Assembly (NCBI RefSeq): GCF_023150065.1
Contig: NZ_JAKLLN010000001.1
Location: forward strand, 378,545-442,544
Direction: 5' to 3'
Origin: Zoogloea sp.
GTDB taxonomy: Bacteria; Pseudomonadota; Gammaproteobacteria; Burkholderiales; Rhodocyclaceae
Length of the DNA stretch: 64,000 nt
Below the pieces are notes generated by a model that saw nothing but the letters and a program-made list of their open reading frames with translations, had not been told where the DNA came from and made no database searches. Below are positions 7,586 to 51,400 of this stretch, piece after piece. Both the position numbers and the translations under genes were made by a program. Position 1 is the first letter of the stretch; each line of letters opens with the position of its first letter.

Positions 7586-7612
7586 CTAAATCTTTGTTTT
7601 GCTGCATTGCGG

Positions 7613-7633
7613 CGAGATTTTATATAAATCTCG
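7613..7633. promoter_or_regulatory. Candidate GntR-type operator (21-bp dyad), ben copy
   Basis: This is a perfect inverted repeat CGAGATTT-N5-AAATCTCG. It lies between the enhancer-like site and the sigma-54 promoter of the ben operon. The CGA cores are 19 bases apart. It is the best copy of an element found in six aromatic-gene control regions of this window. Confidence 0.6.
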
Positions 7634-7698
7634 AGAAAAATGCCGAAGGCCGCATGGATGCTGGGATTCCCCTTTGGGCCGGCTCCTGCGCAAAAGCC

Positions 7699-7715
7699 TT
7701 GGCACGCTTTCTGCT
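7699..7715 (+). promoter_or_regulatory. Sigma-54 promoter of the ben operon
   Basis: TTGGCACGCTTTCTGCT matches the -24/-12 consensus TGGCAC-N5-TTGC with a single change in the -12 element. GG and GC are exactly 10 bases apart. It points toward benA, about 320 bases downstream. The adjacent sigma-54 activator gene supports it. Confidence 0.7.
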
Positions 7716-8033
7716 GAAAGGGATGCAGGCAGGGTGGCAAATCAACGGGATGCACCACAACACAAAGGGCACCCGCCACCTGACAAGAAACGGCACCGCC
7801 AGGCACAGGGCGGCAAGAAACAAAACGGAGACTCTCACCATGCGCTACCCCGATCACCTCCCCGGCCCGTCCTGACGGGCCCTTGGCCGGACACCCCGCC
7901 CGGCCCCTTTTATTCCCCCTTGCCAGACCACTCGCCAGGTGCCCGTGCACCGGGCAGGGACCGGTCTTGCCCGATGAAACGCAGCACCGTGCCCCTCGGG
8001 GCGCATTCCTTCAAACCTGAATCGAAAGAGGAG

Positions 8034-9410
8034 ATGAGCGTGACCCAGATCCGCCAAGACCAGTTCAGCACCCTCGCCAAGCTCGACGCGATGCTTGAAG
8101 AGGATCCCGCCAATCACATCTACCGCCTGGACCGGGCGGCGTTTACCGACGAGGAGCTGTTCGAGCTGGAGATGAAGCACATCTTCGAGGGCAACTGGAT
8201 CTACTTGGCCCACGAGAGCCAGATCCCGAAGGAGAACGACTACTTCACCGTGCATATGGGCCGCCAGCCGGTGATGATCACCCGGGACAAGACCGGCACG
8301 CTCCACGCCCATCTCAACACCTGCACCCACCGGGGCGCCCAGCTCGCCCGCCACAAGAAGGGCAACAAGTCGAGCTTCACCTGCCCCTTCCATGGCTGGA
8401 CCTTCAGCAACGCCGGCAAGCTCCTCAAGGTCAAGGACCAGACTCCCGACGCGGGTTACCCCGAGGGCTTCAACTGCAAGGGCAGCCACGACCTCGTCAA
8501 GGTGGCCCGCTTCGAGAGCTACAAGGGCTTCCTGTTCGGCAGCCTCAACCCCGACGTGCTGCCCCTGGAGGAGCACCTGGGCGAAGCCGCCAAGATCATC
8601 GACATGATCGTCGACCAGGCCCCCGAGGGCATCGAGGTGCTGCGCGGCTCCGGCTCGTATGTGTTCGACGCCAACTGGAAGCTGCAGGCCGAGAACGGCG
8701 CCGACGGCTACCACGTGACCGCGGTGCACTGGAACTACGCCGCCACCCAGGGCCGCCGCACCGCCGACGGCAAGGTGGACACCATCAAGGCCATGAGCGC
8801 CGGTGGCTGGGCGCGCAAGGGGGGCGGCTTCTACTCCTTCAAGCACGGCCACATGCTGCTGTGGACCAACTGGGCCAACCCCGAAGACCGCCCCCTGTGG
8901 GCCAAGCGCGACGAGTGGGTGGAGAAGTTCGGCGAGGCCAAGGCCGACTGGATGCTGGGCAAGTCCCGCAACCTGTGCCTCTACCCCAACGTGTATCTGA
9001 TGGACCAGTTCAGCTCCCAGATCCGCGTGCTGCGCCCCATCTCGGTGGACAAGACCGAGGCCACCATCTACTGCATCGCCCCCAAGGGCGAAGCCCCCGA
9101 AGCCCGTGCCCGCCGCCTGCGCCAGTACGAGGACTTCTTCAACGCCACCGGCATGGCCACCCCCGACGACCTGGAAGAGTTCCGCTCCTGCCAGCAGGGC
9201 TTCAACGCCCGCGCCGTCAAGTGGAACGACATGACCCGAGGTGCCACCCACTGGGTCCAGGGCGCCGATGACAACGCCCGGGTGATCGGCCTCGCGCCGG
9301 AGCTCAGCGGTGTCAAGACCGAAGACGAAGGCCTGTACGTGATCCAGCACCAGTACTGGCTCGAAGCCATGAAGAAGGCCGCCGAGGCCGAACAGAAGGG
9401 AGCCCTGTGA
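8034..9410 (+). CDS. benA: Benzoate 1,2-dioxygenase large (alpha) subunit
   Basis: This is the oxygenase alpha subunit that dihydroxylates benzoate to its cis-1,2-diol. Rieske ligands are visible as C97-T-H99 and C117-P-F-H120 ([20 protein letters not shown]). The mononuclear iron site is [12 protein letters not shown] with D224, H227 and H232. The length is 458 residues, close to known BenA/XylX. The ATG at 8034 has AAAGAGGAG just upstream; the open frame extends further 5' but lacks family similarity there. Its stop codon overlaps the benB start, so the subunits are translationally coupled. Substituted benzoates (XylX-type, toluate) are an alternative substrate. Confidence 0.95.
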
Positions 9411-9895
9411 TGCTGACCTACGAAGCCATTCAAACCTTCCTGTACCAGGAAGCCCGTGCCCTTGACGACCGCCGCTGGAACGACTGGCTGGCCTTCTACG
9501 CCGACGACGTGGAGTTCTGGATGCCGTCCTGGGATGACGACGACACCCTGACCACCGACCCGAACAACGAAGTCTCGCTGATCTACTACGCCTGCAAGCA
9601 GGGCCTGGAGGACCGGGTCTTCCGCATCGAGACCGAGCGCTCCAGCGCCACCATCCCCGACACCCGCACCGGCCACGCCATCAGCAACGTGGAAGTGCTG
9701 TCCCGGGAGGAGGGCGAGATCCGCGTGCGCTTCAACTGGACCACCCACAGCTTCCGCTACGACCTGGTGGACACCTACTTCGGCACCTCCGAATACACCC
9801 TCGACGTGCGCGGGCCCCAGCCGCTGATCACGCGCAAGTACGTGGTCCTGAAGAACGACCACATCCATCACGTGCTGGACATCTACCACATCTGA
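9410..9895 (+). CDS. benB: Benzoate 1,2-dioxygenase small (beta) subunit
   Basis: This 161-residue ring-hydroxylating dioxygenase beta subunit begins [20 protein letters not shown] and has the normal length. It contributes to the alpha3beta3 oxygenase but has no cofactor. The ATG at 9410 overlaps the benA stop (TGATG). A GTG one codon earlier is unlikely to be used. A GC-rich stem-loop follows before benC. Confidence 0.94.
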   Translation: MLTYEAIQTFLYQEARALDDRRWNDWLAFYADDVEFWMPSWDDDDTLTTDPNNEVSLIYYACKQGLEDRVFRIETERSSATIPDTRTGHAISNVEVLSREEGEIRVRFNWTTHSFRYDLVDTYFGTSEYTLDVRGPQPLITRKYVVLKNDHIHHVLDIYHI

Positions 9896-9900
9896 TGAGC

Positions 9901-9926
9901 AGGGCCCGCCCAGGCGGGCGGGCCCT
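9901..9926 (+). other. Stem-loop in the benB-benC gap
   Basis: 10-bp arms AGGGCCCGCC and GGCGGGCCCT flank a 6-base loop. No T-run follows on the coding strand, so it is more likely an RNA-stability or processing hairpin within the operon than a terminator. Confidence 0.55.
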
Positions 9927-9959
9927 CGCAGACCGAAAAAACAACAGAGGGGAAAGACC

Positions 9960-10976
9960 ATGACCTACAACATCGCGCTGCAGTTTGAAGACGGGGTGAC
10001 CCGCATCATTCCCTGCGAAGCCGACGAGCTCGTGTCCGAGGCTGCCTTTCGGGCCAAGATCAACATTCCGCTGGACTGCCGCGACGGCGCCTGTGGCACC
10101 TGCAAATGCCACTGCGAGAGCGGCAGCTACACCCAGGGCGTCTATATCGACGACGCCCTTACCGAGGAGGAGGCCAGCCAGGGCTACCTCCTGACCTGCC
10201 AGACCCGCCCCCAGTCCGACTGCGTCATCCGCGTGCCGGCCTCGTCCGCCGCCTGCAAGACCGCCGTGGCCAGCCACGCCGGGCCGCTGACGGTGATCGA
10301 CCGGACCTCGTCCACCACTGTCTCCTTCACCCTCAGGGCCGACAAGCCGGTGTCTTTCCTGCCGGGCCAGTACGTCAACCTGGGCATCCCCGGCACCGGC
10401 GAGCACCGCGCCTACTCCTTCAGCTCCGCCCCGGGCCAGACCGAGCTGTCCTTCCTGATCCGCGACGTGCCGGACGGGCTGATGAGCCGCTTCATGCGCC
10501 ACACCGCCCAGGCCGGCGACAGCATGCAATTCACCGGCCCCTACGGCAGCTTCTACCTGCGTCCCGTTGAGCGCCCGGTGCTGATGCTGGCCGGCGGCAC
10601 CGGCCTGGCGCCCTTCCTGTCCATGCTGCGCTGGCTGCAGACCCAGCCGGTGGCCCAGCCGATCCGCCTGGCCTACGGCGTCAATGGCAACGATGACCTT
10701 GTCGAACTGGCCACCCTGGACGCCCTCAAGGCCGCGCTGCCCGATTTCGACTACTTCACCTGCGTGGTAGACCCGGCCAGCGGCCACCCCCGCCTGGGCT
10801 ACGTCACCGATCACCTCAGCGCCGCCGACCTGCACGCGGGCAACGCCGACGTCTATGTGTGCGGCCCTCCGCCCATGGTGGAAGGGGTGCGCCGCTGGAT
10901 GGCCGGCGTGGGTGTGGCCCCGGCCCATTTCTACTTCGAGAAGTTCTCCGCCGCCAGTGAAGGAGCCGCAGCATGA
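9960..10976 (+). CDS. benC: Benzoate dioxygenase reductase (2Fe-2S/FAD)
   Basis: This 338-residue reductase passes electrons from NADH to the BenAB oxygenase. The N-terminal plant-type 2Fe-2S domain shows DCRDGACGTCKC and a fourth cysteine in LLTCQTR. It is followed by an FAD domain (RAYSFSSAP) and an NAD-binding domain (MLAGGTGLAPFLSML, CGPPPMVEGV). The order ferredoxin-FAD-NAD is typical of BenC/XylZ. The start has GAGGGGAAAG upstream. The stop overlaps the benD start by ATGA. Confidence 0.95.
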   Translation: MTYNIALQFEDGVTRIIPCEADELVSEAAFRAKINIPLDCRDGACGTCKCHCESGSYTQGVYIDDALTEEEASQGYLLTCQTRPQSDCVIRVPASSAACKTAVASHAGPLTVIDRTSSTTVSFTLRADKPVSFLPGQYVNLGIPGTGEHRAYSFSSAPGQTELSFLIRDVPDGLMSRFMRHTAQAGDSMQFTGPYGSFYLRPVERPVLMLAGGTGLAPFLSMLRWLQTQPVAQPIRLAYGVNGNDDLVELATLDALKAALPDFDYFTCVVDPASGHPRLGYVTDHLSAADLHAGNADVYVCGPPPMVEGVRRWMAGVGVAPAHFYFEKFSAASEGAAA

Positions 10977-11758
10977 GCCGCCCCGATCGTTTCGACGGCA
11001 AGGCCGTCATCGTCACCGGTGCCGCCCAGGGCATCGGCCGGGGCGTGGCCCTGCAGGTGGCCGCCGAGGGTGGCCGGGTGCTGGCGGTGGATCGCTCGCC
11101 GCTGGTGGATGAAGTGGTGGCCGGCATCGTGGCGGCCGGTGGCACGGCCCACGCCATCCAGGCCGACCTGGAGACCTTCGCCGGCGCCCAGGCCGTGGCC
11201 GCCGAGGCCCTGGCCCGCTTCGGCCGCATCGACGTGCTGATCAACAACGTGGGCGGCACCATCTGGGCCAAGCCCTTCGAGCACTACGAGGAAGCCCAGA
11301 TCAAGGCCGAGATCCGGCGTTCGCTGTTTCCCACCCTGTGGTGCTGCCGCGCCGTGCTGCCCGCCATGCTGGCGCAGCGCAAGGGCGTGATCGTGAACGT
11401 CTCCTCCATCGCCACCCGCGGGGTGCACCGGGTGCCGTACTCGGCCGCCAAGGGCGGCATCAACGCGCTCACCGCGTCCATCGCCATGGAGCACACCGGC
11501 AACGGCATCCGCATCAACGCCACGGCCCCCGGCGGCACCGAGGCACCGCCCCGGCGCATTCCCCGCAACGCCGTGCCGCCCACCGAGCAGGAGCAGGCCT
11601 GGTACCAGGGCGTCATCGACCAGACCCTCGACTCGAGCCTGATGCACCGCTACGGGACCATCGACGAGCAGGTGGCCCCGATCCTCTTCTTCGCCTCGGA
11701 CGAATCCTCCTACATCACCGGCAGCGTGCTGCCCGTGGGCGGCGGCGATCTCGGCTGA
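10973..11758 (+). CDS. benD: cis-1,2-dihydroxybenzoate (benzoate diol) dehydrogenase
   Basis: This 261-residue short-chain dehydrogenase oxidises and decarboxylates the benzoate cis-diol to catechol. It has the NAD motif TGAAQGIGRG near residue 17, the NNVG motif, and the catalytic tyrosine and lysine in YSAAKGG. Its start overlaps the benC stop (ATGA), the classic benABCD arrangement. The product, catechol, is the substrate of the dioxygenase encoded two genes downstream. Confidence 0.94.
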   Translation: MSRPDRFDGKAVIVTGAAQGIGRGVALQVAAEGGRVLAVDRSPLVDEVVAGIVAAGGTAHAIQADLETFAGAQAVAAEALARFGRIDVLINNVGGTIWAKPFEHYEEAQIKAEIRRSLFPTLWCCRAVLPAMLAQRKGVIVNVSSIATRGVHRVPYSAAKGGINALTASIAMEHTGNGIRINATAPGGTEAPPRRIPRNAVPPTEQEQAWYQGVIDQTLDSSLMHRYGTIDEQVAPILFFASDESSYITGSVLPVGGGDLG

Positions 11759-11793
11759 CAAGACACCCCGCGATAACGACAACGGAGACAAAC

Positions 11794-13143
11794 ATGAAGA
11801 CCATCGACATTCACGACGTGGTGGACCACGCCCCCTACAGCCGCTTCCATTTCGGTGTGCTGTTCTGGTGTGCCCTGATCATCATCTTCGACGGCTATGA
11901 CCTGGCCGTGGCGGGCATCGCCCTGCCGTCCATCATGAAGGAGATGGGGGTTTCGGCCACCAACGCCGGCTTCATGGTCAGCTCGGCCCTGTTCGGCATG
12001 ATGTTCGGCGCCATCTTTCTGGGCACCCTGGCCGACCGCATCGGGCGCAAGTGGACCATCGTGGTGTGCATCACCCTGTTCAGCGTGTTCACTGCGGCGG
12101 CGGGCATGACCTCCGACCCGGTCGCCTTCAGCATCACCCGCTTCCTGGCCGGCCTGGGCATCGGCGGCGTGATGCCGGCGGTGGTCGCCCACATGACCGA
12201 GTACTCGCCGCGGCGGATGCGCTCCACCCTGACCACCCTGATGTTCAGCGGCTACTCGGTGGGCGGCATGCTGGCGGCGGTGCTGGGCAAGGGCCTGATC
12301 GAGGTGCATGGCTGGCAGTCGGTGTTCCTGGCCGCGGCCACGCCGGTGGTGCTGATCCCGGTGATCCTCAAGGTGCTCCCGGAATCCATGTCCTACCTCG
12401 TCAAGTGTGGCCGCATCGACGAGCTTCAGGCCATCCTCCAGCGCATCGACCCGTCCTACACGCCCGCCGCCGACGACCACTTCGACCTGCACGGCCACAA
12501 GACCAACGCCCCCATCGGCAAGCTGTTCCAGGACGGGCGCGGCTTCTCCACGGCGATGTTCTGGGTGGCCTTCTTCATGTGCCTGTTCATGGTGTACGCC
12601 CTCAGCTCCTGGCTCACCAAGCTCATGGCGGCGGCGGGCTACAGCCTGGGTTCGGCCCTGACCTTCGTGCTGGTGCTCAACTTCGGGGCCATGATCGGCG
12701 CCATTGGCGGCGGCTGGCTGGCCGACCGCTTCCACATCAAGCACGTGCTGATCGGCTTCTACGCCACCGCGGCGGTGTCCATCACCCTGCTGGGCTTCAA
12801 GGTGCCCACCGAGCTGCTGTTCCTGCTGGTGGGCCTGGCCGGCGCCACCACCATTGGCACCCAGATCCTCACCTACGCCTACGTGGGCCAGTTCTACCCG
12901 ATGGCGGTGCGCTCCACCGGCATCGGCTGGGCGTCCGGGGTAGGGCGCAGCGGCGCCATCCTGGCTCCCATCGTGATCGGCACCCTGGTGGGCATGGCGC
13001 TCCCGCTGGAACAGAACTTCATGGCCATCGCCATCCCGGCAGTCATCGCCACCGTGGCCATCTCCCTCATCGACCACAAGCGCTCCGCCTCGGCCATCGC
13101 GCCGGCCAAGGCCACGCCCGCCAAGGTTGCGGCCCAGAGCTGA
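11794..13143 (+). CDS. benK: Aromatic acid:H+ symporter (benzoate MFS transporter)
   Basis: This 449-residue major facilitator protein has 12 predicted membrane segments. It carries the aromatic-acid symporter motifs DGYD in the first membrane helix and GTLADRIGRKWT in the loop between helices 2 and 3. The family includes BenK and PcaK. The ATG at 11794 has GGAGACA upstream; the long open frame 5' of it overlaps benD in another phase and is not real. Location directly after benD points to benzoate as substrate. Confidence 0.9.
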   Translation: MKTIDIHDVVDHAPYSRFHFGVLFWCALIIIFDGYDLAVAGIALPSIMKEMGVSATNAGFMVSSALFGMMFGAIFLGTLADRIGRKWTIVVCITLFSVFTAAAGMTSDPVAFSITRFLAGLGIGGVMPAVVAHMTEYSPRRMRSTLTTLMFSGYSVGGMLAAVLGKGLIEVHGWQSVFLAAATPVVLIPVILKVLPESMSYLVKCGRIDELQAILQRIDPSYTPAADDHFDLHGHKTNAPIGKLFQDGRGFSTAMFWVAFFMCLFMVYALSSWLTKLMAAAGYSLGSALTFVLVLNFGAMIGAIGGGWLADRFHIKHVLIGFYATAAVSITLLGFKVPTELLFLLVGLAGATTIGTQILTYAYVGQFYPMAVRSTGIGWASGVGRSGAILAPIVIGTLVGMALPLEQNFMAIAIPAVIATVAISLIDHKRSASAIAPAKATPAKVAAQS

Positions 13144-13176
13144 GCCCGACCTTCACCCCAACAAGGAGAGATTCAA

Positions 13177-14124
13177 ATGGCACTCACAGGAGTCCTGCGC
13201 CCCGGCCACGTGTCGCTGCGCGTCCTCGAACTGGAACTGGCCCTCAAGCACTACAAGGATGTGATGGGTCTCATCGAAACCGCCCGGGACGCGCAAGGCC
13301 GCGTCTACCTCAAGGCCTGGGACGAGCACGATCACCACAGCATCGTGCTGCGTGAAGCCGACTCCGCCGGCCTGGATTACATGGCCTGGAAGGTGGATTC
13401 GGACGCCACCCTGCGCCGCCTCGCCGCCGACCTGGAAGCCTGCGGCCTGTGTGCCGACCTGGCCTGGATCCCCGCCGGCGAGCACCCGGGCACCGGCGAG
13501 CGCTTCCGCTTCACCGTGCCGACCGGCCACGTCATGGAGCTGTACGCCCACAAGGAGCGTCTGGGCAACAACTGCGGTACCGACGGCCCCGACGTGAACC
13601 CCAACCCCTGGCCCGACGGTCTGGTGGGTATCTCCCCCTCACGCTTTGACCACTGCCTGCTGTACGGCGACGACCTGGACGGCACGGTGAAGGTGTTCAC
13701 CGAGGTGCTGGGTTTCCACATCACCGAGCAGGTAGTGCTCAAGGACAAGCCCGATTTCATGATCGGCAGCTTCCTGACCTGCTCCAACAAGGCCCACGAT
13801 GTGGCCTTCATCCGCCAGCCGGTGAAGGGCAAGCTGCACCACGTCTCCTTCGAGCTGGGCAGCTGGGAGAAGCTGCTCCACGCCGGCGACATCCTGTCCC
13901 GCACCCGCACCTCCATCGACCTGGGGCCGACGCGCCACGGCATCACCCGGGGCGAGACCATCTACTTCTTCGACCCCTCCGGCAACCGCAACGAGGTCTT
14001 CTCCGGCGGCTACATCGCCTACCCGGACAAGCCGGTGATCACCTGGTTCGACGAGACCCTCGGGCCGGCGATCTTCTACCACGACCGCAAGCTCAACGAG
14101 GCCTTCCTGAGCGTGTTCACCTGA
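13177..14124 (+). CDS. xylE: Catechol 2,3-dioxygenase, copy 1 (ben-linked)
   Basis: This 315-residue type I extradiol dioxygenase cleaves catechol to 2-hydroxymuconic semialdehyde. Iron ligands are visible as H159 (RFDHCLLYG), a histidine at 221/222 (KLHHVSFELG) and E273 (SGNRNEVFSGG). It is a few residues longer than XylE (307). An AAGGAGAG site lies just before the ATG. It is the last gene of the benABCDK unit, so benzoate carbon is directed into meta rather than ortho cleavage. It is clearly related to, but distinct from, the copy at 45.3 kb. Confidence 0.94.
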   Translation: MALTGVLRPGHVSLRVLELELALKHYKDVMGLIETARDAQGRVYLKAWDEHDHHSIVLREADSAGLDYMAWKVDSDATLRRLAADLEACGLCADLAWIPAGEHPGTGERFRFTVPTGHVMELYAHKERLGNNCGTDGPDVNPNPWPDGLVGISPSRFDHCLLYGDDLDGTVKVFTEVLGFHITEQVVLKDKPDFMIGSFLTCSNKAHDVAFIRQPVKGKLHHVSFELGSWEKLLHAGDILSRTRTSIDLGPTRHGITRGETIYFFDPSGNRNEVFSGGYIAYPDKPVITWFDETLGPAIFYHDRKLNEAFLSVFT

Positions 14125-14148
14125 TGGAAAGTTCGATGAATAAAAATA

Positions 14149-14177
14149 TCGAGATTTTAAATTAATCTCGTTAAAAT
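14149..14177 (+). promoter_or_regulatory. Sigma-70-like promoter with overlapping dyad operator, lower-pathway operon 1
   Basis: A -35-like TCGAGA (14149-14154) and a -10-like TAAAAT (14172-14177) are 17 bases apart. Between and over them lies the dyad CGAGATTT-N5-TAATCTCG (14150-14170), with TCGA/TCGT cores 19 bases apart. The overlap would let a repressor block this promoter of the downstream dehydrogenase operon. Confidence 0.55.
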
Positions 14178-14263: not shown

Positions 14264-15724
14264 ATGAAAGACTTCAAGAACTTCATCAACGGCGAATACG
14301 TCACCAACCTCAGCGGCAAGACCTACGAGAACCGCAATCCGGTGGACAACTCCCTGATCGGCATGGTCTACGAGGCCGGCAAGCCCGAGGTGGATGCCGC
14401 CGTGGCCGCCGCCAAGGCCGCCCTGCATGGCCCCTGGGGCAAGCTCTCGGTGGTCGAGCGCTGTGCCATGCTCGACGCCATCGTCGCCGAGATCAACCAC
14501 CGCTTCGACGACTTCCTGCAGGCCGAGATCGCCGACACCGGCAAGCCGGCCCACCTCGCCTCGCACATCGACATCCCGCGCGGCGCGGCCAACTTCAAGA
14601 TCTTCACCGACACCATCAAGAACGTCTCCACCGAGTCCTTCGAGATGCGCACCCCCGACGGCAAGACTGCCCGCAGCTACGGCGTGCGCACCCCGCGTGG
14701 GGTGATCGCGGTGATCAGCCCGTGGAACCTGCCCCTGCTGCTGATGACCTGGAAGGTCGGCCCGGCCCTGGCCTGCGGCAACACCGTGGTGGTCAAGCCC
14801 TCTGAAGTCACCCCGGCCACCGCCACCCTACTGGGTGAGGTGATGAACAAGGTGGGCGTGCCGCCCGGCGTGTACAACGTGGTCAACGGTTACGGTGTGG
14901 ACTCTGCCGGCGCGCTGCTCACCGCCCACCCGGACGTGAATGGCATCACCTTCACCGGCGAGACCAAGACCGGCACCGCCATCATGAAGGCCGGCGCCGA
15001 CGGCATCCGCCCGGTGTCCCTGGAGCTGGGCGGCAAGAACGCGGCCGTCGTGTTTGCCGACTGCGACTTCGAGAACGCGGTGAACACCGTCACCCGCTCG
15101 GTCTTCGAGAACTGCGGCCAGGTCTGCCTGGGCACCGAACGCGTGTATGTGGAGCGCCCGATCTTCGACAAGTTCGTGAACGCCCTGAAGGCCAAGGCCG
15201 AAGGCATGAAGCCCGGCCTGCCCTTTGACGCCGATACCAAGATCGGCCCCCTGGTCAGCAAGGTGCACCAGAAGAAGGTGCTGTCCTACTACCAGAAGGC
15301 CCGGGAGGAGGGCGCCACCATCGTCACCGGCGGCGGTGTGCCGAACATGCCCGACGCCCTGAAGGACGGCTGCTGGGTCGAGCCCACCATCTGGACCGGC
15401 CTGCCCGAAACCGCCTCGGTGGTGCGCGAGGAGATCTTCGGGCCGTGCTGCCACATCCAGCCCTTCGACACCGAAGAGGAAGCCGTGCGCATGGCCAATG
15501 ACACCAAGTACGGCTTGGCCACCTCCATCTACACCCAGGACATCAGCCGCGCCAGCCGCCTGGCCACCCAGATCGAAGTGGGCCTGTGCTGGATCAACAG
15601 CTGGTTCCTGCGCGACCTGCGCACGCCCTTCGGCGGCTCCAAGCAATCGGGCATCGGCCGTGAAGGCGGCGTGCATTCCCTGGAGTTCTACACGGAGCTG
15701 CGCAACGTGATGATCAAGTACTGA
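14264..15724 (+). CDS. dmpC: 2-hydroxymuconic semialdehyde dehydrogenase, copy 1
   Basis: This 486-residue aldehyde dehydrogenase oxidises 2-hydroxymuconic semialdehyde to 2-hydroxymuconate (4-oxalocrotonate). The nucleophile is C288 in NCGQVCLGTERVYVERP, and the general-base region is LELGGKNAAVVF. It begins MKDFKNFINGEYV, like DmpC/XylG. It heads a second unit separated from the catechol dioxygenase by 139 bases that contain a promoter and operator. A near-identical-length paralogue lies at 51.9 kb. Confidence 0.93.
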   Translation: MKDFKNFINGEYVTNLSGKTYENRNPVDNSLIGMVYEAGKPEVDAAVAAAKAALHGPWGKLSVVERCAMLDAIVAEINHRFDDFLQAEIADTGKPAHLASHIDIPRGAANFKIFTDTIKNVSTESFEMRTPDGKTARSYGVRTPRGVIAVISPWNLPLLLMTWKVGPALACGNTVVVKPSEVTPATATLLGEVMNKVGVPPGVYNVVNGYGVDSAGALLTAHPDVNGITFTGETKTGTAIMKAGADGIRPVSLELGGKNAAVVFADCDFENAVNTVTRSVFENCGQVCLGTERVYVERPIFDKFVNALKAKAEGMKPGLPFDADTKIGPLVSKVHQKKVLSYYQKAREEGATIVTGGGVPNMPDALKDGCWVEPTIWTGLPETASVVREEIFGPCCHIQPFDTEEEAVRMANDTKYGLATSIYTQDISRASRLATQIEVGLCWINSWFLRDLRTPFGGSKQSGIGREGGVHSLEFYTELRNVMIKY

Positions 15725-15743
15725 TCAGGCCTCCCTTTCTCCC

Positions 15744-15797
15744 GGCGCCCCTCTCCCGGGGGCGCCCGCCGGCCCCGATCCCTCCCCCGGGGCCGGC
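15744..15797 (+). other. Two GC-rich stem-loops between dehydrogenase and hydratase genes
   Basis: The first has 8-bp arms (15744-15751 and 15759-15766). The second has 9-bp arms (15768-15776 and 15789-15797). Neither is followed by a T-run. They may tune mRNA stability between the two genes. Confidence 0.5.
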
Positions 15798-15831
15798 ACC
15801 CCACCCAGAACACTGCAGAGAGACACGAATC

Positions 15832-16614
15832 ATGGACAAGACCCAGATCGATCTTTACGGCGACGAACTCTACAACGCCCTGATCACCCGCACGCCGGTG
15901 GCCCCCCTGACCGACCGGGAGCCCGGCATCACCCTGGACGACGCCTACCGTATCCAGCTGCGCATGATCCAGCGCCGCCTGGACGCCGGCGAGACCATCA
16001 TCGGCAAGAAGATCGGCGTGACCAGCAAGGTGGTCATGGACATGCTCAAGGTCAATCAGCCGGACTTCGGCCAGATGACCTCCGGCATGGTGTTCAACGA
16101 AGGCGAGGCGATCCGCGTGGACAGCATGATCGCCCCCCGCGCCGAGGCCGAGGTGGCCTTCATCCTCAAGCACGACCTGGAAGGCCCGGGCGTCACCGCG
16201 GCCGATGTGCTGCGCGCCACCGAGTGCGTGCTGCCCTGTTTCGAGATCGTCGATTCGCGCATCCAGGACTGGAAGATCAAGATCCAGGACACCGTGGCGG
16301 ACAACGCCTCCTGCGGCGTGTTGACCCTCGGCGGCGTGCGCCGCAGCCCCCGTGACCTGGATCTGGCCCTGGCCGGCATGGTGCTGGAGAAGAACGGCGA
16401 GCTCATCAGCACCTCCACCGGCGCCGCCGTACAGGGCTCCCCGGTGAACGCCGTGGCCTGGCTGGCCAACACCCTGGGTCGCCTGGGCATCGGCCTGAAG
16501 GCGGGGGAGGTGATCCTCTCCGGTTCCCAGTCGCCCCTCGTCCCGGTCAAGGCCGGCGACTCCCTCAGCTGCGCCGTGGGCGGCCTTGGCGGCACCACCG
16601 TGCGCTTCATCTGA
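15832..16614 (+). CDS. dmpE: 2-oxopent-4-enoate hydratase, copy 1
   Basis: This 260-residue member of the DmpE/XylJ/MhpD hydratase-decarboxylase family hydrates 2-hydroxypenta-2,4-dienoate to 4-hydroxy-2-oxovalerate. Family blocks seen are GKKIGVTSKVVMDML, PRAEAEVAFIL, and FEIVDSRIQDWKIKIQDTVADN. A start-proximal GAGAGAC precedes the ATG. It is strongly similar throughout to the copy at 54.3 kb, pointing to duplication of lower-pathway genes. Confidence 0.92.
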   Translation: MDKTQIDLYGDELYNALITRTPVAPLTDREPGITLDDAYRIQLRMIQRRLDAGETIIGKKIGVTSKVVMDMLKVNQPDFGQMTSGMVFNEGEAIRVDSMIAPRAEAEVAFILKHDLEGPGVTAADVLRATECVLPCFEIVDSRIQDWKIKIQDTVADNASCGVLTLGGVRRSPRDLDLALAGMVLEKNGELISTSTGAAVQGSPVNAVAWLANTLGRLGIGLKAGEVILSGSQSPLVPVKAGDSLSCAVGGLGGTTVRFI

Positions 16615-16643
16615 GCCATCCGAACTCTTACAGGACATTCCCC

Positions 16644-17432: not shown

Positions 17433-17503
17433 GCCACATCCCACCCACCATCCACCGGAGAAGGCCGCCCCGGAGCGGCCCGGAGACAGAGAGAGGACAT
17501 CCC

Positions 17504-25176: not shown

Positions 25177-25252
25177 GAAAAATGGCGAGCCGGGCATTTT
25201 ACCGAAGTCACCGCAGTGTGACCCTGCCCGGTCGGCCCACCAGGAGGAGACA

Positions 25253-40329: not shown

Positions 40330-40358
40330 TTCATAAAATCTTCTGTTTCTGTAAATCT

Positions 40359-40722: not shown

Positions 40723-40780
40723 GCGGGCGCCCGGCGCCCCTTGCCCGCTGCACACCACAACAACACAGGAGGAGACACAC

Positions 40781-41779: not shown

Positions 41780-41791
41780 GAAGGAAACCCG

Positions 41792-42061
41792 ATGTCCAAG
41801 GTATTCATCGCCCTGCAGACCAACGACGACACCCGCTCGATCATCCAGGCCATCCTCGCCGACAACCCCCACGCCATCGCCAACGAGCAGCCGGCCATGG
41901 TGAAGATCGACGCGGAGGGTGCCCTGGTGGTGCGCCGCTCGACCATCGAAGAGCTGATCGGCCGCGACTTCGACCTGCAGGAACTGCACATCAACCTGAT
42001 TTCCCTCACCGGTCACGTGGACGAGACCGACGACGAACTGACCCTGAGCTGGAACACCTGA
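41792..42061 (+). CDS. dmpM: Phenol hydroxylase regulatory (effector) protein (P2)
   Basis: This 89-residue cofactorless effector protein (MmoB/DmpM family) starts MSKVFIALQTNDDTRSIIQ and contains IEELIGRDFDLQELHINLIS. It binds the oxygenase and tunes oxygen activation. It lies 12 bases after dmpL and 21 bases before dmpN. Confidence 0.93.
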   Translation: MSKVFIALQTNDDTRSIIQAILADNPHAIANEQPAMVKIDAEGALVVRRSTIEELIGRDFDLQELHINLISLTGHVDETDDELTLSWNT

Positions 42062-42082
42062 TCGCGCCAAGGAGACACGACA

Positions 42083-43636
42083 ATGGACATGAAAGTCAGC
42101 AAGAAGAAGCTGGGCCTCAAGGAGAAGTACCAGCACATGACCCGCGGCCTGGGCTGGGAGACCACCTACCAGTCGATGGACGAGGTCTTCCCTTACGCCA
42201 AGTACGAAGGCATCAAGATCCATGACTGGGACAAGTGGGAAGACCCCTTCCGCCTGACCATGGATGCCTACTGGAAGTACCAGGCCGAGAAGGAGCGCAA
42301 GCTCTACGCCATCATCGACGCCTACGCCCAGAACAACGGCCATCTGTCGGTGACGGACGCCCGCTACATCAACGCGATCAAGCTCTTCCTCAACGGCATC
42401 AGCCCGCTGGAGTACATGGCTCACCGGGGCTTCGCCCATGCCGGCCGGCAGTTCCCGGGCGTCGGTCCGCGGGTGGCCTGCCTGATGCAGTCCCTGGACG
42501 AGATCCGCCACGCCCAGACCCAGATCCACTCGCTCTCCAACTACAACAAGTACTACAACGGCTTCCACGAGTACCGGCACATGCTCGAGCGCGTGTGGTA
42601 TCTGTCGGTGCCGCGCTCCTTCTTCGACGACGCCTACACCGCCGGCCCCTTCGAGTTCATGGTGGCCATCGGCTTCAGCTTCGAGTACGTGCTGACCAAC
42701 CTGCTGTTCGTGCCCTTTGTGTCGGGTGCGGCCTACAACGGCGACATGGGCACCATGACCTTCGGCTTCTCGGCCCAGTCCGATGAAGCCCGTCACATGA
42801 CCCTGGGCCTCGAGGTCATCAAGTTCATCCTCGAGCAGGACCCGGACAACCTGCCCATCGTCCAGCAGTGGATCGACAAGTGGACCTGGCGCGGCTACCG
42901 GGTGCTGACCCTGGTCGGCATGATGATGGACTACATGCTGCCCAAGCGCATCATGAGCTGGAAGGAAGCCTGGGAGGTCTATTTCGAAGAGAACGGCGGC
43001 GCCCTGTTCAAGGATCTGGCCCGCTACGGCATCCGTCCGCCCAAGTGGCTCGACCAGATCGAGCAGGACAAGGACCACATCTCCCACCAGGCCTGGGCGA
43101 CCTTCTACAACTACGCCGCCGCGTGCAATTTCCACACCTGGATTCCCACCGACGACGAGCTGGACTGGCTGTCCCAGAAGTACCCCAACAGCTTCGACAA
43201 GTACTACCGGCCGCGCCTGGAGCACTGGCGCGAGGAGGCCAAGAAGGGCAACCGCTTCTACAACAAGACGCTGCCCATGCTGTGTCAGACCTGCCAGATC
43301 CCGATGATCTTCACCGAGCCCGGCGACCCGACCCAGATCTGCTACCGGGAGGTGGACTACAAGGACAACAAGTACCACTTCTGCTCGGACGGCTGTAAGG
43401 AGATCTTCGAGCACGAGCCCGAGAAGTACATCCAGGCCTGGCTGCCGGTGCACCAGATCTACCAGGGCAACTGCTTCAACGAGGGGGTTGACCCCACCGC
43501 CGAGGGCTTCGACCCCCTGGCCGCGGTGCTCGACTACTACCACCTCAATTTCGGTCGCGACAACCTGGACTTCGACGGCTCGGAAGACCAGAAGAACTTC
43601 GAAGCCTGGCGCGGCATGGCCACCAAGAACACCTGA
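42083..43636 (+). CDS. dmpN: Phenol hydroxylase large diiron oxygenase subunit (P3)
   Basis: This is the 517-residue catalytic subunit that hydroxylates phenol (and often cresols) to catechols. Diiron ligand motifs are D139-E140-I-R-H143 and D234-E235-A-R-H238. A C-terminal YHS-type domain carries CQTCQIPMIF and HFCSDGCKEIFEHEPEKY. It begins MDMKVSKKKLGLKEKYQHMT. The substrate range (phenol versus methylphenols or benzene) cannot be read from the sequence. Confidence 0.95.
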   Translation: MDMKVSKKKLGLKEKYQHMTRGLGWETTYQSMDEVFPYAKYEGIKIHDWDKWEDPFRLTMDAYWKYQAEKERKLYAIIDAYAQNNGHLSVTDARYINAIKLFLNGISPLEYMAHRGFAHAGRQFPGVGPRVACLMQSLDEIRHAQTQIHSLSNYNKYYNGFHEYRHMLERVWYLSVPRSFFDDAYTAGPFEFMVAIGFSFEYVLTNLLFVPFVSGAAYNGDMGTMTFGFSAQSDEARHMTLGLEVIKFILEQDPDNLPIVQQWIDKWTWRGYRVLTLVGMMMDYMLPKRIMSWKEAWEVYFEENGGALFKDLARYGIRPPKWLDQIEQDKDHISHQAWATFYNYAAACNFHTWIPTDDELDWLSQKYPNSFDKYYRPRLEHWREEAKKGNRFYNKTLPMLCQTCQIPMIFTEPGDPTQICYREVDYKDNKYHFCSDGCKEIFEHEPEKYIQAWLPVHQIYQGNCFNEGVDPTAEGFDPLAAVLDYYHLNFGRDNLDFDGSEDQKNFEAWRGMATKNT

Positions 43637-43694
43637 TGGGTCGGCGGGCGGCCCCAGGCCGCCCGCCATCAAACAAGAACGAGGAGAGACAACC

Positions 43695-44054
43695 ATGGGC
43701 GTTGCTGCCATCAAGGAATACGCGTTCGAGTCCGCCGACCGGCTCGAGAATTTTCACGGCAACCAGCTGCTGTACATCGGCTGGGACAAGCACCTGCTGT
43801 TCTGTGCGCCGTTCTGCCTGCCCATGCCGCCAGCCATGCGCTTCGGCGACATCATCGACAAGGTGCTGCCGGGCGTCTTCGGCTATCACCCGGACTTTGC
43901 GAAGATCGACTGGAGCAAGGTGATGTGGCTGAAGTCGGGCCAGCCCTGGCAGGCCGACTTCAACAAGACCCTGGCCGAGCTGGGCCTCAAGCACAAGGAC
44001 GTGCTGCGCTTCCAGACCCCGGGCCTGGACGGGATCAAGGGTTCGGCGAGCTGA
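43695..44054 (+). CDS. dmpO: Phenol hydroxylase gamma subunit (P4)
   Basis: This 119-residue third oxygenase subunit begins MGVAAIKEYAFESADRLENF. It is small and needed for full activity. GAGGAGAGAC precedes the ATG at 43695; the longer open frame upstream runs over dmpN in another phase. dmpP starts one base after its stop. Confidence 0.9.
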   Translation: MGVAAIKEYAFESADRLENFHGNQLLYIGWDKHLLFCAPFCLPMPPAMRFGDIIDKVLPGVFGYHPDFAKIDWSKVMWLKSGQPWQADFNKTLAELGLKHKDVLRFQTPGLDGIKGSAS

Positions 44055-44055
44055 C

Positions 44056-45111
44056 ATGTCCTACGAACTGACCATCGAGCCCCTGGGCCAGACCATCGAG
44101 GTGGAGGAGGGCCAGACCATCCTCGACGCGTCCCTGCGTGCCGGCATCTGGCTGCCCCACGCCTGCTGCCACGGCCTGTGTGCCACCTGCAAGGTGCAGG
44201 TGGTGGATGGCGAAGTCGATCACGGCGAGGCCTCCAGCTTTGCCCTGATGGACTTCGAACGCACCGAGGGCAAGACCCTGGCCTGCTGCGCGCGCCTGGA
44301 GTCGGACGTGACCATCGAGGCCGAGATCGACGAGGAGCCGGATGCCGAGTCGATCCCGGTACGGGATTTTCCCGGGGTGGTCAGCCGTATCGAGCCCCTC
44401 ACGCCGACCATCAAGGGCATCTTCATCGAGCTGGACGAGGCCATCCATTTTCAGGCGGGCCAGTACATCAACCTGGAGATTCCGGGGCTGGGCATCACCC
44501 GCGCCTTCTCCCTCGCCAATGCGCCGGGGCAGGGGCGGGAGGTGGAGCTCAACGTGCGCATCGTGCCCGGCGGCGTGGGCACCGGCCACCTCCATGAGCG
44601 CCTCGCGGTGGGTGACCGGGTGCGCTTTTCCGGCCCCTACGGCCGCTTCTTCGTGCGCAAGTCGGCCGGTGTGCCGCTGCTCTTCATGGCCGGGGGCTCG
44701 GGCCTGTCCAGCCCGCGCAGCATGATCCTGGATCTGCTGGGTGAAGGCTGCACGCTGCCCATCACCCTGGTGTATGGCCAGCGCAGCCGGGCCGAGCTGT
44801 ACTACCACGACGAGTTCCTGGCGCTGGCGGCACGGCATCCCAACTTCCAGTACGTGCCGGCCCTCTCCGACGAGCCGGCGGACTCGGACTGGCAGGGCTT
44901 CCGGGGTTATGTGCACGACGCGGCCAAAGCCCACTTCGACAACGACTTCCGGGGTCACAAGGCCTATCTGTGCGGGCCACCCCTGATGATCGACGCGTGC
45001 ATCTCGACCCTGATGCAGGGGCGGCTGTTCGAGAACGACATCTTCACCGAGAAGTTCTTTTCGGCGGCGGACGCCCAGCAGGTGCGCAGCCCCCTGTTCA
45101 AGCGGGTGTAG
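44056..45111 (+). CDS. dmpP: Phenol hydroxylase reductase (P5)
   Basis: This 351-residue NADH-dependent reductase has an N-terminal plant-type 2Fe-2S domain (HACCHGLCATCKV, fourth cysteine in ACCARLE), an FAD domain (RAFSLANAPGQG) and an NAD domain (FMAGGSGLSSPRSMI, CGPPLMIDAC). It delivers electrons to DmpLNO. It ends the dmpKLMNOP run. The catechol dioxygenase gene follows after 155 bases with its own promoter. Confidence 0.94.
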   Translation: MSYELTIEPLGQTIEVEEGQTILDASLRAGIWLPHACCHGLCATCKVQVVDGEVDHGEASSFALMDFERTEGKTLACCARLESDVTIEAEIDEEPDAESIPVRDFPGVVSRIEPLTPTIKGIFIELDEAIHFQAGQYINLEIPGLGITRAFSLANAPGQGREVELNVRIVPGGVGTGHLHERLAVGDRVRFSGPYGRFFVRKSAGVPLLFMAGGSGLSSPRSMILDLLGEGCTLPITLVYGQRSRAELYYHDEFLALAARHPNFQYVPALSDEPADSDWQGFRGYVHDAAKAHFDNDFRGHKAYLCGPPLMIDACISTLMQGRLFENDIFTEKFFSAADAQQVRSPLFKRV

Positions 45112-45152
45112 GGGCTCCGCACCCTGGGTTTTACCAATAGATTTATAAAATC

Positions 45153-45191
45153 TCGAGAAAAGTTTGACTTATCGAGAAGTCTGATTAAGAT
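45153..45191 (+). promoter_or_regulatory. Sigma-70 promoter with overlapping dyad, catechol dioxygenase copy 2
   Basis: A -35 TTGACT (45164-45169) and a -10 TAAGAT (45186-45191) are 16 bases apart. The operator-like CGAGAAAA-N5-ACTTATCG (45154-45174) covers the -35 box, with TCGA cores at 45153 and 45172, 19 bases apart. This position is typical of repression. Confidence 0.65.
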
Positions 45192-45266
45192 ACACAGCAG
45201 CACTCGCCGCCACGGGCTGCACCCCGGGCGAGGCGAACATCCAAAGACAAAAGAGGAGACAAGAAC

Positions 45267-46196
45267 ATGGCAGTTACCGGTGTAATGCGTCCGGGCCACA
45301 TGCAGCTGCGTGTGCTCGACCTGGACGAAGGGGTCAATCACTACAAGAACGTGCTGGGCCTCATCGAGACCGGCCGCGACGCCCAGGGGCGGGTGTATTT
45401 CAAGGCCTGGGACGAGCGCGACCACAACAGCCTGATCCTGCGCGAGGCCGACTCGGCCGGCATGGATTTCTTCGCCTTCAAGGTGGCCGACAAGGCCACC
45501 CTCGAAAAGCTCGATGCCGACCTGAAGGCCTACGGCGTCAGCACCGAGCGCATTCCGGCCGGCGAGCTGCTGGAAACCGGTGAGCGCGTGCGCTTCATGA
45601 TCCCCTCGGGCCACGCCATCGAGCTCTACGCCGAGAAGACCGACGTGGGCAACGGCATGTCCTATGTCAATCCCGATCCCTGGACCCCCGACGCCGAACG
45701 CGGCATCGCCCCGGTACGCCTCGACCACGCCCTGGTGTACGGCCCGGACATCGAGAAGGTGCAGAAGCTGTTCGTGGACGTACTGGGCTTCTACCTGGTG
45801 GAGCGGGTGCTGATGGAAGACGGCAAGACCGACCTGGCCATCTGGCTGTCCTGCTCCCACAAGGCCCACGACATCGCCCTGGTGCGCCACCCCGAGCCGG
45901 GCAAGCTGCACCACGTGTCCTTCCTGTTGGACACCTGGGAGAAGGTGCTGCGCGCCGCCGACATCATGTCCATGAACAAGGTGTCCATCGACATCGGCCC
46001 GACCCGCCACGGCGTCACCCGCGGCACCACCATCTACGCCTTCGATCCTTCAGGCAACCGCTTCGAGACCTTCTGCGGCGGCTACCAGCCCTATCCCGAC
46101 TACGCCCCCATCACCTGGACCTGGGAAGAAGTGGGCACCGGCGTCTTCTACCATGACCGCAAGCTCAACGAGCGCTTCCTGACCGTGGTGTCCTGA
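45267..46196 (+). CDS. dmpB: Catechol 2,3-dioxygenase, copy 2 (phenol-linked)
   Basis: This 309-residue extradiol dioxygenase has iron ligands H154 (RLDHALVYG), H215/216 ([10 protein letters not shown]) and E267 ([11 protein letters not shown]). It is closer to the XylE/DmpB length than copy 1. It directly follows the phenol hydroxylase genes but is separated from the rest of the lower pathway by three leftward genes. A GAGGAGAC site precedes the ATG. Confidence 0.95.
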
Positions 46197-49228: not shown

Positions 49229-50400
49229 GATGCGGCCGGCCGCCTGCCGAAGGCGATGCCGGTGAAGGTCTGGTTGATGTGCATGCCCCGGTATTGCTCG
49301 CCGAAGGTGTTAAAGCCGATCACCCGGCTGGCGGCCATCCGCGCACCCACGGTGTCGACGATTTTGCGGGCACGGCACTCGAGCAGCCGCAGAATGCAGT
49401 CGCAGCCGAGGATCAGCTCCACCTCGCCGACCTTTGCCGCGGCCTCGAGCAAGGCAGTGTCCAGGTTGGCCAGGATGTCCTCGCCGCGTGCCATGCGGAA
49501 CACGATGCCCCGGTCGATGGCGCAGAAGAAGCTCAGGCTGCCGTCCGGATTGACCCGCTGGATGGAGCGCACGAAATCCGCGTTGCCGATGCGCACCACC
49601 ACCGGGTGGGCGGCAAACACATGCGGGCTCAGGGCGGCCGTGTCCATGCCCAGGGCGCGGGCATACTCGGGCGCCGCCAGGCAGCCGTTGATCTCGGTGA
49701 CGATGCGCCTCTCCGGAATGGCGCCGGTGACCACCAGGCGGGTCTCGGTGGGGCTGAAATGCTGGGTCTTGAACAGCGTGAAGGGATGTCGGGATGCGGC
49801 CACCAGCAGCACCGCAGCGTTGCGCAGCAGGCGCCCGCCGAAGATCACCCGGGTATCGGTGAAGCTCAGCTCGTCCCCGGCCGAGCCGCCGGTGAGGGGA
49901 ATGCCCCCGAGCCCGTCGTGAAAGGCCCGGGCGACGGACTCCTCCCGCGAGGACAGGCCGTCCACCAGCATGAAGGCGAAGCAGTGTTCGTTGTCGAGGC
50001 CCCCCAGGCGGGCCTGCAGGCGGCTGCGCAGCTCCTGGGCGAAGAGCGCCATGCTGCGGGCGTCGGTGTGTTCCAGGTCTTCCAGCAGGCCGATCTCGAA
50101 GTCGATCTCGCCGGGGGCGAAGTGGGCGCCGCTGAGGCTGCCCTCCCGGTATCCGCCGGGGCCGATCTCGCCGGCCGTGGTGCAGCCGATCAGGGGCGTA
50201 TCGCCGAAGGCTGCCCGCAGATTGTCGGCGAGGGCGTCTGGTGCAAAGCGGCTCGATGCAAACACAATCGACAGCCCGCCGTCGCCGGGGCGAAGCCCGG
50301 CTGCCAGTTCGCGGGAGGCGTCCGCCGGATCGTCGCTGTCGCTCGAGCCGATGCGGATGCCCGACACCCCGCCGTCACCGGCGTGTGTGTTGGCAATCAT
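49225..50400 (-). CDS. FIST-domain sensory protein
   Basis: This 391-residue protein carries FIST_N and FIST_C domains (IGCTTAGEIGPGGYREGSLSG, LVDGLSSREESVARAFHDGLG, LTGGSAGDELSF, and C-terminal GFNTFGEQYRGMHINQTF). FIST domains are proposed small-ligand sensors, often of amino acids. It has no signal peptide. A GGAGGAGACAG site precedes the ATG. It is coupled to the PAS-GGDEF-EAL gene, to which it probably passes a signal. Confidence 0.88.
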   Translation of the reverse strand: MIANTHAGDGGVSGIRIGSSDSDDPADASRELAAGLRPGDGGLSIVFASSRFAPDALADNLRAAFGDTPLIGCTTAGEIGPGGYREGSLSGAHFAPGEIDFEIGLLEDLEHTDARSMALFAQELRSRLQARLGGLDNEHCFAFMLVDGLSSREESVARAFHDGLGGIPLTGGSAGDELSFTDTRVIFGGRLLRNAAVLLVAASRHPFTLFKTQHFSPTETRLVVTGAIPERRIVTEINGCLAAPEYARALGMDTAALSPHVFAAHPVVVRIGNADFVRSIQRVNPDGSLSFFCAIDRGIVFRMARGEDILANLDTALLEAAAKVGEVELILGCDCILRLLECRARKIVDTVGARMAASRVIGFNTFGEQYRGMHINQTFTGIAFGRRPAAS

Positions 50401-50549
50401 TATTGTTCTGTCTCCTCCGGAGCATCGCCGTGTGCAGGCTGGCTAGCTTGCGCATGCGTCAATGCTCCCACCTCCGTCTAACGGAGGCGCGATTCTATAA
50501 CTTTAGTCTGATATCGGAGGAGGTTCCCGCGAAGCGGCCTCAAGCCACT

Positions 50550-51287
50550 TCAGCTGATGAAGTCGGCGGGCAGCTGGCGCACGGCTTCGAGGGTGCGCAG
50601 GATGTGCTCGGAGAGGATGCGCGTGGCCTCGGCCGCGTTGCGGGCGAGGGCGGCGTCGACGATGGCCTGGTGCTCGGCGTGGACGTCCCGGGGGATGGGC
50701 TGCCGGAACAGGGACAGGCGGCGGTAGCGCTCGGATTGGTGATACAGGATGTTCTGGAAGTGGCGGATCCAGCGCGACGGGCAGGCGCCGATGAGCACCT
50801 CGTGGAAGGCCCGGTTGCGCAGCTCCCACTCTTCACGGCTGGTCTTGGAGCCGTCGCTGAGCTTCTCCTCGGCCCGGGACAGCAGGTGGAAGGCGGCCAC
50901 CACGCTGGCCTCCCAGGCATCGTCGCCCAGCTCGATGGATTGCTGCAGGGCCGAAGTCTCCAGCAGCACCCGGGTGCGGGTGATGTCGGCGAAGTCGTCG
51001 AGGGAAATGGGCGCCACCCGGAAGCCGCGCTGCCCCTGGGCCACCACCAGCGCATCGGTGACGAGCAGCTGCAGGGCCTCCCGCAGGGTGCCGGCGCCGA
51101 CTTCGTACTGATCCTTCAGGTGTTCCACCCGCAGCTTGTCGCCCGGGCGGTGCACGCCTTCGATGATGTCCCTGCGCAGCTGGCGATAGGCCGCTTCGGC
51201 CAGGGTCTTGGGTTCGTCGCCGTCGGTGACGAGATCGGGGGCATTGGCCAGGTCGTTCATGGTGTGGTTTCCGCTGTTCTTGTTCAT
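50550..51287 (-). CDS. aphS: GntR-family (FadR/FCD subfamily) transcriptional regulator, AphS/PhcS-like
   Basis: This 245-residue regulator has an N-terminal winged helix (LAEAAYRQLRRDIIEGVHRPGDKLRVEHLKDQ, split at about residues 28-60, then GAGTLREALQLL) and a C-terminal FCD ligand domain. GntR repressors AphS and PhcS are known to repress phenol genes in Comamonas, in tandem with a DmpR-type activator. The same pairing exists here. A start nine codons later (ATG at 51260, with GGAAA upstream) is equally plausible. It is divergent from the lower meta operon and its promoter region contains three operator-like dyads. Confidence 0.85.
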   Translation of the reverse strand: MNKNSGNHTMNDLANAPDLVTDGDEPKTLAEAAYRQLRRDIIEGVHRPGDKLRVEHLKDQYEVGAGTLREALQLLVTDALVVAQGQRGFRVAPISLDDFADITRTRVLLETSALQQSIELGDDAWEASVVAAFHLLSRAEEKLSDGSKTSREEWELRNRAFHEVLIGACPSRWIRHFQNILYHQSERYRRLSLFRQPIPRDVHAEHQAIVDAALARNAAEATRILSEHILRTLEAVRQLPADFIS

Positions 51288-51340
51288 GGCCCCGCAGGGC
51301 GCAGATGAATGGAGCGAATTCTAGCCTAATGGGCTTATTC

Positions 51341-51400
51341 CGATCATAGGCAAAAATCTCGAGAAAAAGTATTGACGTCGAGATAAGAAGTAAATATCGT
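51341..51400 (+). promoter_or_regulatory. Promoter with three tandem operator-like dyads, lower meta operon 2
   Basis: A -35 TTGACG (51372-51377) and a -10 TATCGT (51395-51400) are 17 bases apart. Three 21-base units (51341-51361, 51360-51380, 51379-51399) overlap end to end so that a CGA or CG core recurs every 19 bases. They cover the -35 and -10 boxes and reach toward the divergent GntR gene. Confidence 0.65.

Follow-up and report, generated by a model that had tools for sequence, protein, structure and literature searches.

TCGA-centred sites at 19-bp pitch in aromatic-degradation control regions of Zoogloea: predicted operators of an AphS-type GntR/FCD repressor

AphS and BphS, GntR-type repressors of aromatic degradation, recognize an even 14-nt palindrome, AAATmTCGAkATTT (PMC6449761), and the occurrence of multiple sites ahead of genes is taken in the introduction of that paper to imply cooperative binding. 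According to the passages of PMC6449761 drawn on here, AphS controls phenol, benzoate, and lower-pathway genes as well as regulator genes (AphR and BenR) in Thauera MZ1T and Dechloromonas aromatica, and the placement of aphR and aphS in one operon is the usual rather than the required arrangement. In Comamonas testosteroni, an AphS site is described as lying around a putative integration host factor (IHF) site and not in the upstream activating sequence (UAS) (passages of PMC3063778). BphS is a repressor relieved by 2-hydroxy-6-oxo-6-phenylhexa-2,4-dienoate (HOPDA) (passages of PMC11448139). The 64,000-nucleotide stretch of Zoogloea sp. DNA analyzed here (the window) carries TCGA-centred elements in six control regions of aromatic-degradation genes, together with a gene for a GntR/FCD protein at 50550–51287 on the minus strand. 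The analysis places an AphS regulon in Zoogloea; one literature search found no paper on phenol hydroxylase and GntR regulation in this genus.

The elements are very probably operators of the AphS-type repressor encoded at 50550–51287, a protein predicted to bind them. The mechanism is already known, and what is new is the pitch rule and the layout of the regulon. Six stretches had been named in an earlier reading of the window (the original prediction), and direct reading of the sequence finds all of them, at 7613, 14150, 25155, 40359, 45154, and 51 kb. Common to the six places is a TCGA-centred 14-mer; their alignment puts AAATCTCGAGAAAA at 7626, 25168, 40353, 45148, and 51354 and AAATATCGAGATTT at 14144. 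These sites match the AphS/BphS motif and stand in multiple copies upstream of aromatic genes. The original prediction knew of no described operator of this form, a statement that the published motif overturns (passages of PMC6449761). It had cast the element as a 21-bp odd dyad, CGAGATTT-N5-AAATCTCG, which is exact at 7613 but looser than claimed elsewhere, with 1 mismatch at 14150, 3 at 25155, 7 at 40359, 6 at 45154, and 4, 7, and 3 in the three units at 51 kb. The proposed distance of 19 bases between the CGA cores was accurate for 7 of 8 units, measured from CG to CG, and failed at 40359, where the second core is CC. The 21-bp dyad is the inner view of two 14-mer palindromes with centres 19 bp apart.

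The sites are real, correctly placed, and far above chance expectation. The genome comprises 5,245,242 bases, the window being part of its contig C111, and exact AAATCTCGAGAAAA occurs five times in it, each time inside the window, where about 0.003 matches are expected genome-wide at 65% GC. A motif equally frequent away from aromatic genes had been named as the outcome that would speak against the operator, and the genome scan gave the opposite picture for the exact form. There are no one-mismatch copies of AAATCTCGAGAAAA in the 5,245,242 bases, and two-mismatch matches number 7, compared with 3 for the mirror control. The published 14-mer at three mismatches was rejected as a means of defining the regulon, being too noisy: its 85 genome hits are only about twofold over the 44 of the mirror control.

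The densest array of sites is found upstream of the GntR gene itself, where four CG cores follow each other at 19-bp pitch (51335–51405; 14-mer frames at 51335, 51354, 51373, and 51392), with a −35-like box at 51372–51377 between the second and third cores and a −10-like box at 51395–51400 on the fourth. At the promoter of the second catechol 2,3-dioxygenase gene (C23O-2), a plus-strand pair at 45148–45180 (14-mers at 45148 and 45167, pitch 19) flanks the −35-like box (TTGACT at 45164; TAAGAT ending at 45191). The pair before the first 2-hydroxymuconic semialdehyde (HMS) dehydrogenase gene (HMSD-1; 14144–14176, plus strand, 14-mers at 14144 and 14163, pitch 19) lies over the −35/−10-like boxes of a lower-pathway promoter. 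Two minus-strand pairs cover boxes of regulator genes: 25149–25181 (25168 with its partner at 25149) covers the sigma-70-like box of the DmpR-type gene B (−35 at 25188, −10 at 25165–25160), and 7607–7639 (7626 with its partner at 7607), upstream of the ben sigma-54-like promoter, covers a sigma-70-like box facing the XylR-type activator gene A. The phenol hydroxylase operator (40353–40377, plus strand) consists of a 14-mer at 40353–40366 and a weaker overlapping match at 40364–40377.

The 19-bp pitch is real and strict. In a survey of 121 genomes of the family (Rhodocyclaceae), AATCTCGAGA followed by TCGA after 3–33 bases was found at 142 places, and the mirror control gave one match. Of the 75 places in the 33 genomes that have an AphS homologue (E ≤ 1e-30), 30 show a pitch of exactly 19, compared with none of the 67 in the remaining genomes, such that the spacing rule sharply separates real from chance sites. 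Setting aside the 16 places that precede the gene of the regulator itself, as assigned manually by their coordinates, leaves 14 of 59 versus 0 of 67 (p = 1e-5). Counted over 97 de-duplicated anchors (194 sides), CG cores are found at offset 19 on 72 sides and at each of the other offsets from 14 to 29 on 3 to 20. The bphS-like gene of Polaromonas CJ2 also has two upstream TCGA sites 19 bp apart (L161). No 19-bp pitch is stated in the literature covered by the searches, and the passages of PMC6449761 drawn on here give no spacing of AphS sites. In one relative, an extra operator pair at the same pitch is located between a benK-like gene and the first catechol 2,3-dioxygenase gene (C23O-1) (L237:5449).

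The motif accompanies the regulator. Among the same 121 genomes, 28 have a close AphS homologue (E ≤ 1e-60), and 25 of these contain AAATCTCGAGAWWW, compared with 4 of the 93 that have none; at E ≤ 1e-30, the counts are 26 of 33 versus 3 of 88, and the mirror control of AAATCTCGAGAWWW is found in none of the genomes. The 245-residue protein encoded at 50550–51287 has the GntR helix-turn-helix (HTH) and FCD domains of AphS/BphS repressors (Pfam GntR 2.4e-18, FCD 5.7e-18) and is the product of the only close AphS-type gene in the genome, the next best having 29% identity. No NCBIfam family scores above its cut-off for this protein, the best being CsiR, whose 172 bits fall short of the cut-off of 218. 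Its nearest named relatives are from Zoogloea, and it shares 46% identity with the Polaromonas CJ2 protein and 56% with that of an Achromobacter plasmid gene, which adjoins sigma-54 regulator and phenol hydroxylase genes. Kinship with BphS (CJ2) and with genes in aphR-aphS-like arrangement is evident in this comparison, which covered the CJ2 and Achromobacter genes. A midpoint-rooted tree with long branches separates the aphRS-like clade of Comamonadaceae from a set that includes both the clade of the window's protein and the CJ2 gene. Across 65 homologues, every alignment column of the HTH segment VGAGTLREAL is conserved in at least 95% of rows. AphS is expected to be accompanied by an AphR-type activator, and the window has two XylR/DmpR-type genes, either of which may be the AphR orthologue. 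The choice of the GntR gene as the best candidate for the regulator is supported: it is AphS-type, the only close one in the genome, and its homologues co-occur with the motif.

Corresponding promoters of other Zoogloea carry the sites as well. The sampled relatives all come from genomes that contain the motif, which number 19 of 23 in the genus, and promoter counts include consensus matches only. Of 60 distinct sites listed in 18 relatives, 40 (in 11 relatives) were examined with their neighbours, as were three more, two of them in L186 and L187; 33 of the 40 adjoin homologues of the window's target genes, and 7 stand beside other genes. A consensus site, though not the whole array, is present at the AphS promoter in 11 of 11 sampled relatives, in which sites are also found at the promoters of gene B (7), C23O-2 (7), benA (5), and phenol hydroxylase (3), with the order of UAS-like repeats, operator, and sigma-54-like element kept in the latter three. 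Between C23O-1 and HMSD-1, the site is present in 6 of 6 relatives examined, each time as a 19-bp pair. For the AphS promoter, 35 of 57 loci were taken for alignment on TCTCGAGA/TCTCGATA, an anchor that is conserved by construction; L039 lacks it, leaving 34 loci plus the window, or 23 distinct promoters after removal of near-duplicates, and L030, L032, and L049–L068 fall outside the alignment. These 23 promoters share TTGAC and a TCGA at +19, and in most rows, a −10-like box follows 17 bp after the −35.

Beyond the promoters known from the window, the perfect palindrome AAATCTCGAGATTT is located 5′ of a Pyr_redox_2 (type II NADH dehydrogenase-like) gene in five Zoogloea genomes (L186:851, L187:1501, L198:2486, L231:2568, and L238:2445), a possible further AphS target; the exact 14-mer AAATCTCGAGATTT has no copy in the window's genome. 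In two genomes, the motif lies between an IclR-type regulator gene and an SBF transporter gene (L219:2479 and L222:2520), and elsewhere before a major facilitator superfamily (MFS) gene or before a FAD_binding_3 gene beside a LysR gene (L197:2573 and L194:2539, respectively). The genes divergent from aphS in Azoarcus/Thauera (for example, L031, L033, and L040) apparently begin, as judged by eye, with MK(L/V)AVPQ or MNIAVPQ and seem unlike the Zoogloea HbpS gene, with the promoter and two operators conserved.

Other readings of the element have been weighed. The pitch might be merely a by-product of two sites placed around a −35 box and not a property of the protein, and TTGAC is indeed contained in 23 of the 30 pitch-19 matches. 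However, the remaining 7 lack it, and the −35 is shifted by 2–3 bp between the C23O-2 and AphS promoters at a constant pitch of 19; the pitch is thus independent of the −35 box. With the HMSD-1, gene B, and ben pairs also having different promoter geometry, the by-product view is unlikely. It is less probable still that one dimer binds the 21-bp odd dyad of the original prediction via the two inner arms. In its favour, that form fits 7613 without a mismatch and 14150 with one, 7 of the 8 arm positions at 40359 are complementary, and the pair is kept at HMSD-1 in relatives. Nevertheless, better conservation of the inner arms of a pair over the outer ones was ruled out, with 2.12 versus 2.24 of 5 consensus matches (p = 0.46, 72 partner sides at offset 19 of 194). 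At least 4 mismatches separate 4 of 8 units from the dyad, and the published AphS/BphS motif is a 14-mer (passages of PMC6449761); the odd dyad is not preferred as the recognition unit. Equally improbable is the view that another factor, such as a XylR/DmpR protein, IHF, or an unrecognised one, binds the element and co-occurs with AphS via the same pathways. Because AphS is linked to both the activators and the pathway genes, these factors cannot be separated by co-occurrence alone. Yet the XylR/DmpR UAS is a different sequence, found separately at 40306–40329 and 7562–7576, the element precedes aphS in every sampled relative (11 of 11), and the motif is the one published for AphS/BphS (passages of PMC6449761).

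Several observations weigh against the assignment of these elements, at their strict pitch, to AphS. At 26 loci of distant homologues, offset 19 accounts for 4 of 50 contexts, a count equalled by offset 57. At L162 and L165, loci with a sigma-54 regulator gene directly before the GntR gene, and at similar Comamonadaceae loci, the strong sites are about 216–220 bp apart and not 19. The 14-mer is missing from 3 of the 28 genomes with close AphS and present in 4 of the 93 without, and genomes of one family are related samples, so that p values overstate the case. The Azoarcus AphS homologues L030 and L032 have no such site in the 170 bases upstream, and L039 carries only a variant site in the same span. 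Lastly, aphS in the window is outside any aphRS operon and divergent from lower pathway 2, and the closest gene of the DmpR type found within the window is some 25 kb distant.

The promoter elements around the sites suggest how a bound repressor might act. A sigma-70-like scan of the whole window (threshold of at least 9 of 12) gives 7 matches, 6 of which lie on these sites, at five promoters; the four overlaps counted in the original prediction were correct but too few. Three of the overlapped promoters face structural genes (HMSD-1, C23O-2, and HbpS with lower pathway 2), and two face genes for sigma-54 activators of the XylR/DmpR type, which are divergent from benA and from a ferredoxin gene, respectively. 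All sites do fall before aromatic genes, as had been proposed, but the overlapped boxes at 7613 and 25155 face the activator genes rather than benA and the ferredoxin gene. These two sites on promoter-like boxes of activator genes had been missed, and part of the control may therefore be a cascade. The site at 40359 has no sigma-70-like box and precedes a sigma-54-like −24/−12 element, such that the phenol hydroxylase site is placed between UAS-like repeats of the XylR/DmpR type (TTGATCA family, 40306–40329, plus strand, from a pattern search) and the −24/−12 element (40406–40420, plus strand; GGGCACGGGCCTTGT, 2 mismatches). The UAS-like pattern has 4 matches in the window, 3 of them in the 40306–40329 cluster, against a mean expectation of 0.33.

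The benA gene is preceded by a sigma-54-like −24/−12 element at 7700–7714 (plus strand; TGGCACGCTTTCTGC, 1 mismatch), whose TGGCACG and −12 GC are kept in 5 of 5 aligned relatives, and by a UAS-like sequence at 7562–7576 (plus strand, 3 mismatches). Enrichment of the sigma-54 pattern across the window was ruled out, with 54 matches at two mismatches compared with a mean of 86 in shuffles; the elements before ben and phenol hydroxylase are credited only because of their place and conservation. As an observation in its own right, benA is associated (5658–7760) with this conserved element and a divergent XylR/DmpR-type activator, not with benR or benM.

The most likely targets of repression by AphS are both lower pathways, catechol dioxygenase, phenol hydroxylase, and the two XylR/DmpR-type activator genes. 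The element looks like a repressor operator joining benzoate, phenol, and both lower pathways, and the original proposal to this effect is supported. We infer binding, cooperativity, and the direction of regulation as follows. The binding unit would be the 14-bp palindrome centred on TCGA, and units stacked 19 bp centre to centre would allow neighbouring repressor dimers to bind cooperatively. At the promoters of lower pathway 2, C23O-2, and lower pathway 1, a stack over the −35 region would block sigma-70 RNA polymerase. The stacks ahead of ben and beside gene B lie on activator promoter-like boxes, and repression could also be exerted by withholding the activators. At phenol hydroxylase, a repressor between the activator UAS and the −24/−12 promoter may prevent the DNA from bending or looping. 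Given that BphS is relieved by HOPDA, a ring-cleavage product, for instance 2-hydroxymuconic semialdehyde, is the likely inducer.

There is about an even chance that AphS/BphS repressors in general follow such a strict grammar, with 14-mers spaced by exactly 19 bp whatever the promoter geometry and read by a phased dimer array, and that the Zoogloea regulon has one master switch. If so, the switch would gate both lower pathways and phenol hydroxylase directly, plus two sigma-54 activator genes, one of which would run benzoate dioxygenase in place of BenR; in some species, an NADH dehydrogenase gene would be gated too. The layout predicts a cooperative array and a simple hierarchy, with two activators gated by a single repressor.

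The genes concerned are distributed over much of the window. Activator A (5658–7526, minus strand) has XylR_N, V4R, and Sigma54_activat domains and is divergent from benA. Of 22 other Zoogloea genomes, 12 encode homologues of it with an identity of 71% or more. Activator B (23316–25109, minus strand), for which MobR is the best NCBIfam match at 615 bits, below the cut-off of 999, is possibly the phenol activator, AphR/DmpR-like. On the plus strand, 7599–14124 holds benABC-like genes, a short-chain dehydrogenase (SDR) gene taken as benD, an MFS transporter gene, and C23O-1; position 7599 is merely the first in-frame start, and the gene probably starts later. Lower pathway 1 (14264–21049, plus strand) comprises genes for HMS dehydrogenase, two fumarylacetoacetate (FAA)-hydrolase-type enzymes, and a POR-domain oxidoreductase. 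The stretch 40459–46196 (plus strand) lies 3′ of the phenol hydroxylase sigma-54-like element and spans the C23O-2 promoter. Lower pathway 2 (51434–57910, plus strand) encodes an HbpS-like protein, HMS dehydrogenase, an alpha/beta hydrolase, an FAA-hydrolase-type enzyme, an SDR, acetaldehyde dehydrogenase, and a DmpG-type aldolase. Between the aromatic clusters, allophanate hydrolase and urea carboxylase genes are found at 26899–32321, beside genes for DUF1989 proteins and an NMT1-type transporter.

Compared with the AphS/BphS regulons of Betaproteobacteria (passages of PMC6449761), the Zoogloea locus has the same GntR repressor type, 14-nt TCGA-centred palindrome, multiple sites, and pathway types. 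In Thauera MZ1T, however, the ben genes are run by the AraC-type BenR, whereas a XylR/DmpR-type activator and a sigma-54-like ben promoter are found here, and, unlike the usual AphS systems, Zoogloea aphS stands outside an aphRS operon (same passages). AphS of C. testosteroni TA441 and PhcS of strain R5 repress phenol hydroxylase, which is a putative target here too, and there as here an AphS site lies off the UAS, near the IHF region in C. testosteroni (passages of PMC3063778 and PMC6763649), but the aphRS-like homologues related to TA441 fall in another clade (midpoint-rooted tree), with sites about 216–220 bp apart. BphS of KKS102 and Polaromonas CJ2 likewise belongs to the GntR repressors, and its operators cover a catabolic promoter (passages of PMC11448139), and the CJ2 plasmid gene, bphS by its neighbours, shares the 19-bp spacing of two TCGA sites. 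BphS serves the biphenyl pathway, though, and the CJ2 protein, at 46% identity, has the HTH segment VSGGTVREAL in place of VGAGTLREAL. NanR of Escherichia coli is a further GntR-type repressor, whose dimers bind cooperatively to a repeat operator and depend on a defined spacing; its operator is (GGTATA)3, its ligand differs, and it has no pathway relation to the regulon described here (passages of PMC8012715).

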